DNA of 64,000 nt from assembly GCF_018687555.1 (NCBI RefSeq), contig NZ_CP061296.1, positions 868,001 through 932,000 of the forward strand, given 5' to 3'. The translations under genes were made by a program, and so were the position numbers. The DNA is from Polynucleobacter sp. MWH-P3-07-1 (GTDB lineage: Bacteria; Pseudomonadota; Gammaproteobacteria; Burkholderiales; Burkholderiaceae). The notes below the pieces were generated by a model. It searched no databases, was not told where the DNA came from, and was given only the letters and a program-made list of their open reading frames with translations. Of this stretch, positions 57,453 through 59,152 are shown piece after piece; positions within the stretch are counted from its first letter, which is position 1, and each line of letters begins with the position of its first letter.

Positions 57453-57737
57453 TTAGAGAATAGACTTAGCAGTTTTGACTAACTTCATTGCACCCCAGCC
57501 AAGAGCCAAAACTTTACTAGCCAATTTCGGCTTAAAGTGAGCCAATACCGCAAACGCACTAGTCCACAAAATGGGACTGCTCTTGATAAACTGCACAGCC
57601 TCAAGGCCTTTATCAGCCCAAGAAAACGGTTTCTTGAGGACTGTGAAATGGGAGCTGATTTCCTGACGCTCTTTAGCGGCCTGAGCTTGCAGGACGCGCT
57701 GACGCGCTAGAAGAGTTTCAAGTGATTGACTCATCAA
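57453..57737 (-). CDS. YqjK-like small protein
   Basis: A 94-residue protein with a charged N-terminal helix (LLARQRVLQAQAAKERQEI) and weakly hydrophobic C-terminal half (FIKSSPILWTSAFAVLAHF). It is of the YqjK type by position behind YqjD- and YqjE-like genes. Function is unknown. ATG follows the previous stop by 12 bases. Confidence 0.7.
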   Translation of the reverse strand: MMSQSLETLLARQRVLQAQAAKERQEISSHFTVLKKPFSWADKGLEAVQFIKSSPILWTSAFAVLAHFKPKLASKVLALGWGAMKLVKTAKSIL

Positions 57738-57749
57738 GAATTAGTCTGA

Positions 57750-58121
57750 TTAATGATGATTAAGAGCGGAGCGATCTTTTTCTAGCTCGGCGATCGACGC
57801 AGCAAATAGTGCCGGCATCGTTTTGATGGCACGCATTATCATGAGTCCAAATACTAGACCAGCCAGCAAAAATCCACCGGTTAAGAAAGCTAAGGCAGCC
57901 ATTCGGTTGGTCTCGGAGCTATAAACCACAATCCAGAGTGCCAGCATGACTAGGCCAAAGAACAAGCAAAATAAGCAAAACAGAATTAATACGAGCAGCT
58001 TAATGAACTGAGCCCGAGCAACAGAAACATCACTGGAAAGTAATTCAAGACGAGTTTGGGCAATCGAAGTTGCACTAGATAGTAAGCCCTTCAGAGAGCT
58101 TAATAGATGCTCTGTTGCCAT
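57750..58121 (-). CDS. YqjE-like phage-holin-family (DUF1469) membrane protein
   Basis: The 123 residues begin with a soluble helix (SLKGLLSSATSIAQTRLELLSSDV), cited here as the SIAQTRLELLSSD part. Two hydrophobic helices at about 38-62 and 74-98 follow, separated by a short loop. This is the Actinobacterial/phage holin superfamily III architecture of E. coli YqjE. The function is unknown; members are thought to act in the envelope. Start and stop are 12 and 6 bases from its neighbours. Confidence 0.85.
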   Translation of the reverse strand: MATEHLLSSLKGLLSSATSIAQTRLELLSSDVSVARAQFIKLLVLILFCLFCLFFGLVMLALWIVVYSSETNRMAALAFLTGGFLLAGLVFGLMIMRAIKTMPALFAASIAELEKDRSALNHH

Positions 58122-58127
58122 GGATTT

Positions 58128-58454
58128 TTAACGACGACCGATTAAAAGGCCAATCAATAGGCCTGCACCTGCAGCGATACCAACTGCTTGCCAAGGTTTC
58201 TCGTGCACAAATACATCCGCTTCTTGGGCCGCTTCTTTTGCTTTTTCAGCAATCACATCCTGAGCCTCAGATAAGCTTTCTTTAGCGGTACTCAAAGTTT
58301 GTTGAGCCTTGGCTCGGACAGAGTGCATTGCTTCACCGCCATGCTCTGCACTGGCCTTGATTAAGGCCTCTGCATCTGAAATTAAGGCCTTGAAATCATC
58401 CACGAGCTTATGGGAAGCATGCTCAGCAGATAGCGGGGATTGATGATTCGTCAT
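58128..58454 (-). CDS. DUF883-family membrane protein (YqjD/ElaB type)
   Basis: A long amphipathic helix (DFKALISDAEALIKASAEHGGEA, shortened here to LISDAEALIKASAEH) is followed by repeated Ala/Lys/Glu sequence and then the family ending EKPWQAVGIAAGAGLLIGLLIGRR, cited as PWQAVGIAAGAGLL and LIGRR. The C-terminal helix anchors it in the inner membrane. E. coli YqjD and ElaB tether ribosomes in stationary phase. Length is 108 residues. It is the first gene of the yqjD-E-K-type group upstream of fadD. Confidence 0.9.
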   Translation of the reverse strand: MTNHQSPLSAEHASHKLVDDFKALISDAEALIKASAEHGGEAMHSVRAKAQQTLSTAKESLSEAQDVIAEKAKEAAQEADVFVHEKPWQAVGIAAGAGLLIGLLIGRR

Positions 58455-58497: not shown

Positions 58498-58519
58498 GTG
58501 GCATCACCCATCATGCCAC
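58498..58519. repeat. Hairpin between the secreted-protein gene and the DUF883 gene
   Basis: GTGGCAT (58498-58504) and ATGCCAC (58513-58519) form a perfect 7-bp stem with an 8-base loop. On the minus strand it lies 20 bases behind the stop of the secreted-protein gene but has no T-tract, so it could be a weak terminator or a leader structure of the DUF883 gene. Confidence 0.45.
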
Positions 58520-58539: not shown

Positions 58540-58836
58540 TTAAGAACAGTATTTACGCTCTAAGGTGCTGATATCCCTTGTTTGGTCATCCACCATGCGA
58601 TTCATGGCCTTTTGCGCTCTTTCTCTATTTTCTGGCGCTTGAAGATTGGTATTAATCAATCCACTCACGTCCTTGCGGATGGAGGTATTTCCATACTGAA
58701 GGCCTTTCAGCATGGCAACGGTTTCTGCCGAAAGCTTGCATTGCTGGCTCACTAACTCCGATGAATCTGGTGAGGAATTCGCAAAAGCAAATGCAAATAT
58801 GGAGATCGACAGTATTCCTATGATCGTCTTTTTCAT
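58540..58836 (-). CDS. Small secreted protein of unknown function
   Basis: The signal peptide (MKKTIIGILSISIFAFAFA, cleavage near residue 20) precedes about 78 mature residues with two cysteines, in SQQCKLSA and at the C-terminus KYCS, which could form a disulfide. The middle is polar and helical (GLINTNLQAPENRERAQK). No family is recognised. The ATG is 1 base from the stop of the small HTH gene, so the two are certainly translated from one message. The small size and single-domain form suggest a periplasmic regulator or binding protein rather than an enzyme. Confidence 0.75.
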   Translation of the reverse strand: MKKTIIGILSISIFAFAFANSSPDSSELVSQQCKLSAETVAMLKGLQYGNTSIRKDVSGLINTNLQAPENRERAQKAMNRMVDDQTRDISTLERKYCS

Positions 58837-58837
58837 T

Positions 58838-59017
58838 TTATTTCCTTATTTTTTGACCACACGTTGGACAGCAACCTAAATCTTTTGCCTTGAGTTTCCT
58901 CAGGGCGGCATAAACACTGGATTCTGAAATCTCCATCTTCCTGGCTGCTTGGGCAGCTGTAAGACCTTTTCCAACCCACTCCACTGCTTGATATGTCTTT
59001 GGTATCGCTCTTTTCAT
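58838..59017 (-). CDS. 59-residue helix-turn-helix protein with C-terminal Cys motif
   Basis: ATG at 59017 has GGAG eight to eleven bases upstream. Residues 15-45 form a helix-turn-helix (GKGLTAAQAARKM, then SESSVYAALRKLK), as in small phage-like or resolvase-type DNA-binding proteins. The end has CCPTCG (49-54), a half zinc-ribbon-like cysteine cluster that might bind metal or dimerise. The stop is followed after one base by the start of the secreted-protein gene. It is too short for ordinary gene calling and may be unannotated in related genomes. No function is claimed beyond probable DNA binding. Confidence 0.7.
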   Translation of the reverse strand: MKRAIPKTYQAVEWVGKGLTAAQAARKMEISESSVYAALRKLKAKDLGCCPTCGQKIRK

Positions 59018-59051
59018 ATTGCTTTCTCCATAACGTTACTATACTACAGAA

Positions 59052-59067
59052 GTTGTGAAGTTGTGAA
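59052..59067. repeat. Tandem direct repeat upstream of the small HTH gene
   Basis: GTTGTGAA occurs twice without a gap, 35 to 50 bases in front of the small HTH start. It sits where an operator would be expected. Loosely similar TTGTGAG and TCGTGAA words recur at 59138-59151 beyond the terminator. Confidence 0.45.
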
Positions 59068-59110
59068 CTTTATTTATAAAAATATATTCTGTTGTTTTGA
59101 GGCAATAAAA

Positions 59111-59130
59111 AAGCCCCTAAAAAGGGGCTT
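59111..59130 (-). terminator. Rho-independent terminator of the RND efflux operon
   Basis: On the minus strand the stem AAGCCCC/GGGGCTT around TTTTTA is followed by TTTTTTATTG. It lies 23 bases behind the stop of the pump gene at 59153, ending the efflux operon and isolating it from the small HTH gene. Confidence 0.9.
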
Positions 59131-59152
59131 TATGCAATTGTGAGATCGTGAA

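Follow-up and report, generated by a model that had tools for sequence, protein, structure and literature searches.

A compact two-gene cassette lies on the minus strand of the window (the whole 64,000-nucleotide stretch of DNA analyzed here), in which the gene for a small HTH protein is followed by the gene for an exported protein (Table 1). The HTH open reading frame encodes MKRAIPKTYQAVEWVGKGLTAAQAARKMEISESSVYAALRKLKAKDLGCCPTCGQKIRK, with the C-terminal end ...GCCPTCGQKIRK, and is separated from the second open reading frame on the same strand by 1 nt. A preliminary description of this DNA had reported a 59-residue HTH protein with a CCPTCG tail, a one-base gap, and a secreted two-cysteine protein, and its coordinates proved exact. 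Two copies of GTTGTGAA (59052–59059 and 59060–59067) are present upstream of the HTH gene, and a terminator-like hairpin (59110–59131) lies between the stop of an efflux operon (59153) and the cassette.

Table 1. Positions of the cassette, its upstream signals, and its downstream neighbors in the window.
Feature	Position	Strand	Basis
Intrinsic terminator, efflux operon/cassette boundary	59110..59131	-	9-pair stem and T-run
Putative operator GTTCACAACTTCACAACTTC, tandem 8-bp repeats	59049..59068	-	sole exact genomic site; 15-mer exclusivity; conserved block
-35-like hexamer TTCACA, within first repeat	59062..59067	-	TTCACA-18-TATAGT
-10-like hexamer TATAGT	59038..59043	-	near-invariant block in 67 S34-type loci
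Ribosome-binding site GGAGA	59025..59029	-	sequence; GGAG-type site in most homologues
HTH protein gene, 59 aa, CCPTCG tail at C-terminus	58838..59017	-	ORF
Predicted recognition helix, residues 32–47	58877..58924	-	AF2 model, homologue comparison
CCPTCG tail, residues 49–54, candidate inter-subunit zinc hook	58856..58873	-	invariance, weak Rad50_zn_hook similarity
Exported protein gene, 98 aa; C33 and C97	58540..58836	-	ORF
Signal peptide, about residues 1–20, MKK...AFAFAN	58777..58836	-	sequence; low pLDDT at residues 1–21
DUF883 (YqjD-type) gene, conserved downstream neighbor	58128..58454	-	Pfam DUF883_C 3.7e-16, DUF883 1.7e-9; synteny
Phage_holin_3_6 (YqjE-type) gene	57750..58121	-	Pfam 1.6e-15; synteny
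YqjK-like gene	57453..57737	-	Pfam YqjK 5.1e-11; synteny

The cassette is a genuine genus-restricted two-gene unit of freshwater Polynucleobacter. Of 61 Polynucleobacter genomes, 38 contain the cassette, and neither gene was found without the other. A scan for the HTH locus with one genome per species yielded 73 loci, one of them truncated at a contig end. In the set made up of the window and 72 of these loci, the exported partner stands directly behind the HTH gene at 71 of the 73, with an intergenic spacing of 1 nt at 65 of these 71 and of −4 to +3 at the remaining loci. All named records among the 73 loci are Polynucleobacter, and the others are unnamed betaproteobacterial or Burkholderiaceae MAGs. 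The 72 full or near-full homologues of the HTH protein, from Polynucleobacter and unnamed betaproteobacterial MAGs, share 76–89% identity with it, and homologues of the exported protein share 58–68%. Both genes are under purifying selection, as synonymous sites are strongly diverged and amino acids are retained, giving a median dN/dS of about 0.1 (0.097 for the HTH gene and 0.089 for the exported-protein gene, from pairs with unsaturated synonymous sites). The intact and adjacent reading frames across the genus, the low dN/dS, and the conservation and exclusivity of the operator lead us to judge the genes non-random. Two copies in one genome (L171 and L172) match over both genes and the preceding ~70 bp, with one base different, and then diverge abruptly; since the edges of the duplicated block coincide with the promoter and the end of the second gene, the unit that moved consists of the promoter and the two genes. 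This duplication as a block, together with the co-occurrence of the genes, bears out the two-gene cassette of the preliminary description, and the search for the pair in other genomes that it had proposed returned homologues that keep the reading frame. We found no paper on the pair in the literature.

The HTH protein matches no known family above threshold and gives only weak generic HTH scores. Its HTH part scores 23.3, 21.2, and 19.9 bits against Pfam HTH_28, HTH_23, and Sigma70_r4_2, where the gathering thresholds of 25, 24.6, and 25.7 are not reached, and it shows similarity to sigma-70 region 4 in Pfam (E 6e-4). The AF2 model (mean pLDDT 85) predicts a tri-helical HTH with helices at residues 7–16, 21–28, and 32–47 and a short cysteine tail. 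Foldseek searches with this model gave weak matches (best E 0.35, none <0.001), and ArdK was among those with the highest query TM-scores (0.67). The tail residues C49, C50, P51, T52, C53, and G54 are invariant in 73 of 73 homologues, and the invariance of the three cysteines makes metal binding by the tail plausible. Rad50 zinc hooks likewise carry a lone CPxC that needs a second copy to form a four-cysteine zinc site, and it is this need for a second subunit that leads us to propose a hook joining an HTH dimer; the HTH protein differs in having no coiled coil, and its similarity to Rad50_zn_hook is weak (E=0.065 over 15 residues).

The second product begins with MKK and carries a predicted AFA/N-type cleavage site, and it would be located in the periplasm. 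In its AF2 model, every 10-residue block from residue 31 onward has a pLDDT >90, and the mature protein is predicted with high model confidence to be a four-helix bundle. The fold search found no clear solved relative, only weak saposin-like helical matches, and no homologues outside the genus were detected in 300 sampled genomes of the order. Searches of Pfam, NCBIfam, and PADLOC gave no convincing toxin or defence family. An assignment as YqjC (DUF1090) was rejected, with an hhalign probability of 0.6% and no Pfam DUF1090 match in 14 members. The earlier statement that neither product belongs to a known family thus holds for both products, apart from the weak generic scores of the HTH part.

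The conservation of the upstream region points to a dedicated operator. Across loci whose HTH protein has serine at residue 34 (S34 type; S in 67 homologues, G in 6), the operator is near-invariant and its flanks drift. A search of 101 genomes gave 34 copies of the exact 15-mer TTCACAACTTCACAA, each just upstream of this HTH gene and none in the 23 Polynucleobacter genomes that lack the pair (Fisher p 5e-11, with genomes counted as independent). Given this exclusivity, the site is much more likely to serve a dedicated local regulator than to be a shared site for another factor. The promoter and terminator consensus matches alone do not score clearly above shuffles, so the case is carried by conservation. 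The operator-like character first noted for the GTTGTGAA repeats is strongly supported by the 15-mer exclusivity, this conservation, and the altered operator of the S34G paralogues. A wider regulon of the HTH protein was considered and rejected, as the source genome holds one exact operator and two sites with two mismatches, about as many as were counted with the pattern reversed as a control. In the small genome G016, both genes are kept, and the operator and −10 region are degraded.

The operator occurs in two layouts that, to judge from the gene tree, interchanged several times. S34-type loci carry TTCACAAC-type tandem repeats, some substituted, just upstream of a TATAGT-type −10. Layout A reads ACTTCACAACTTCACAACTTC-TGTRG-TATAGT (44 loci by first classification), and layout B has an additional inverted half-site, ACTTCACAACTTCACAACTTCAGAAGTTGTGATATAGT (23 loci). 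A TTCACA copy is found 16–18 bp before the −10 in both layouts, so this copy doubles as the −35 box. When the layout labels are placed on the gene tree, which is short and partly unresolved, at least five changes are required even if only starred branches are counted. The six paralogues with G34, within the predicted recognition helix, have an altered operator of the AGTTGTGAAGTTCAGTACTTCTGTAGTATAGT type. As these six fall in a single clade, the S34G substitution and the operator change represent one event. Neighbors were read for four G34 loci: at three of these (L093, L097, and L099) the cassette is found outside its usual setting, immediately ahead of a lone gene for a membrane histidine kinase, and at the fourth (L098, the site also labelled L172) it occupies the usual place. 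The kinase genes directly after these second cassette copies (L093 7295–8740, L097 799–2241, and L099 4951–6393) encode multi-pass proteins.

The cassette usually sits before a yqjD-yqjE-yqjK-type operon. In most relatives it is followed by a Smr-domain gene and then by DUF883, DUF1469-type, and YqjK genes. This Smr-domain gene, found ahead of the DUF883 gene in most Polynucleobacter but missing from the window, encodes a protein with a zinc-ribbon-like stretch at its N-terminus. The same DUF883/DUF1469-type/YqjK order occurs in Escherichia coli (yqjC-yqjD-yqjE-yqjK) and Pseudomonas aeruginosa (PA3040-PA3042); the latter operon, related to the yqj-type genes, responds to envelope stress (PMC11302039). 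In E. coli, a small leader-bearing protein, YqjC, comes before yqjD, as does the exported protein in the window, but the listed neighbors of yqjC include no HTH gene, and the exported protein of the cassette is not a DUF1090 protein. Per genome, the DUF883 gene and the pair are both present in 24 cases and both absent in 11, and DUF883 alone is present in 2 (genomes counted as independent), one of which, G020, is an incomplete assembly with a contig end nearby. The preliminary description had held that a terminator isolates the cassette; this stands for the 5′ side, towards the efflux operon, but not for the 3′ side, where the yqjD/yqjE/yqjK-type operon follows on the same strand. A conserved link with the RND efflux operon was rejected, as this neighbor in the window is not kept in relatives. 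A hairpin (GTGGCAT/ATGCCAC, 58498–58519) between the exported-protein and DUF883 genes is terminator-like for the plus strand only, and the intergenic stretch containing it has a fold z-score of −2.06. At six loci (L062, L069, L073, L078, L087, and L095), the Smr/yqj-type genes are separated from the cassette by a 364-aa gene on the opposite strand, which encodes an alpha/beta hydrolase in L073.

ArdK of plasmid R388 (KorA family; 7bca, 7bcb) is, as proposed here for the HTH protein, a small sigma-70-like HTH repressor acting at direct repeats at the −35 box. ArdK exerts repression through direct repeats of TTGACA adjacent to the −35 box, and binding to inverted repeats is also possible (PMC9723621). 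As in ArdK-type operators, a −35-like hexamer is directly repeated at the −35 box of the cassette promoter, with TTCACAAC as the repeat unit instead of TTGACA and a spacing of 8 instead of 10 bp. ArdK has 102 aa, a separate dimerisation domain, and five target promoters, whereas the HTH protein has 59 aa, a cysteine tail, and one target. The C-terminal dimerisation domain of KorA/ArdK proteins (a beta strand and a helix in a protein of about 100 aa) is absent from the HTH protein, which places it outside the family; a sequence relationship was not detected, as ArdK was not among the PDB sequences that a profile search returned with E values up to 1. We therefore read the likeness as a parallel in working rather than membership.

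Relatives of the HTH protein occur on viral contigs and in another Burkholderiales genus (L185, L187, L188, L179, and L180). These HTH-CPxC proteins share an SKTQ/PKT..A start, one HTH, and a CP[TC]C(G) tail, and L185 is 51% identical to the HTH protein over residues 5–57. They differ in having terminase-like genes or a 121–132 aa putative membrane protein as neighbors and no exported partner of the cassette type, and we found no described function for them. In L179 (1489–2102, other Burkholderiales genus) and L187 (from 1348, viral contig), the HTH-CPCC gene overlaps the putative membrane protein gene by 4 nt, an arrangement parallel to the cassette. An order-wide search with the HTH gene gave distant HTH-CPCC proteins only, and class-wide matches cover the HTH part only. 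Phage records yielded nothing beyond two weak partial matches, and plasmids one weak match; carriage of the pair by phages or plasmids was rejected on these weak HTH matches and on the exported protein having no viral-contig match. Nonetheless, the relatives on viral contigs, one of them beside a terminase-like gene pair, suggest that the HTH gene may be derived from a phage.

The cassette is very probably autoregulated. The account we consider probable is a self-regulated unit of a dimeric autorepressor HTH protein and an exported four-helix protein, with a probable role in an envelope response. The recognition helix would read the TTCACAAC repeats that cover and follow the −35 box of the HTH gene's promoter, and the bound protein would block RNA polymerase and so repress its own gene and the co-transcribed exported-protein gene. 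The HTH protein would most likely act as a dimer held by one zinc between two CPxC tails, and with such a shared zinc, repression would be open to control by zinc or thiol state. When repression is lifted, the periplasmic four-helix protein, probably with one disulphide, would be made, and transcription may read through from the cassette into the downstream yqj-type operon. A part in an envelope response is probable for the exported protein because the cassette usually precedes that operon. We infer these elements with decreasing support from repression to zinc to the envelope role. Several observations speak against the account: the 8-bp spacing puts neighboring repeats on different DNA faces, the Foldseek matches and the zinc-hook similarity are weak, the G016 upstream region is degraded, and in several species a gene on the opposite strand stands between cassette and yqj-type operon.

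Autorepression can be extended, with some but lesser likelihood, to a larger envelope-stress operon with DUF883-DUF1469-YqjK, of which the pair is the front and all of which the HTH protein regulates. The conserved synteny, the gene co-occurrence, and the E. coli gene order favor this extension, and no minus-strand terminator-like site was seen between 58540 and 58454; the exported protein, however, is not a YqjC homologue, the opposite-strand hydrolase gene intervenes in several species, second copies precede a histidine kinase gene, and G010 has the yqj-type operon without the pair. The operator evidence would be identical if the HTH protein were an activator or dual regulator that acts at the −35 region to bring in RNA polymerase, and the weak −35 hexamer (TTCACA, not TTGACA) and the sigma region 4-like HTH would suit such a role. 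We consider it unlikely, as the repeats extend from the −35 into the spacer towards the −10 in both layouts, a placement that normally blocks polymerase.

Two tiny near-touching genes, autoregulation by the first, and patchy presence in the genus also recall a toxin-antitoxin-like or bacteriocin module with an HTH antitoxin/repressor and a small exported toxin. The signal peptide on the second product, the lack of a toxin or defence family match, the mostly fixed chromosomal position, and the failure of the searches to find copies of the HTH gene on plasmids or of the exported-protein gene on viral contigs make this improbable. Least probable is that the HTH gene is a phage remnant with no regulatory link to the second gene: HTH relatives do occur on IMG/VR contigs, one beside terminase-like genes, but the strict pairing, the purifying selection, and the restriction of the operator to the HTH gene promoter argue against it. 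A bolder form of the autorepressor account, which we hold only tentatively, is that a phage-related, zinc-hook-dimerised repressor of 59 residues, which would rank with the smallest specific regulators, reads direct tandem repeats of 8 bp, tolerates repeated changes of operator layout from direct to inverted and back, and controls a new family of exported helical proteins serving as sensor or chaperone.

Beyond the preliminary description, our analysis adds the conserved yqj-type neighborhood, the paralogues, and the HTH-CPxC relatives on viral contigs. The loci form a natural series of more than 70 promoter-regulator pairs with two interchanging layouts and an altered-specificity paralogue, which could test how a minimal HTH handles direct versus inverted repeats. 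A regulator and its exported partner are thereby named for a common freshwater genus and tied to the poorly understood yqjD-type envelope operon.
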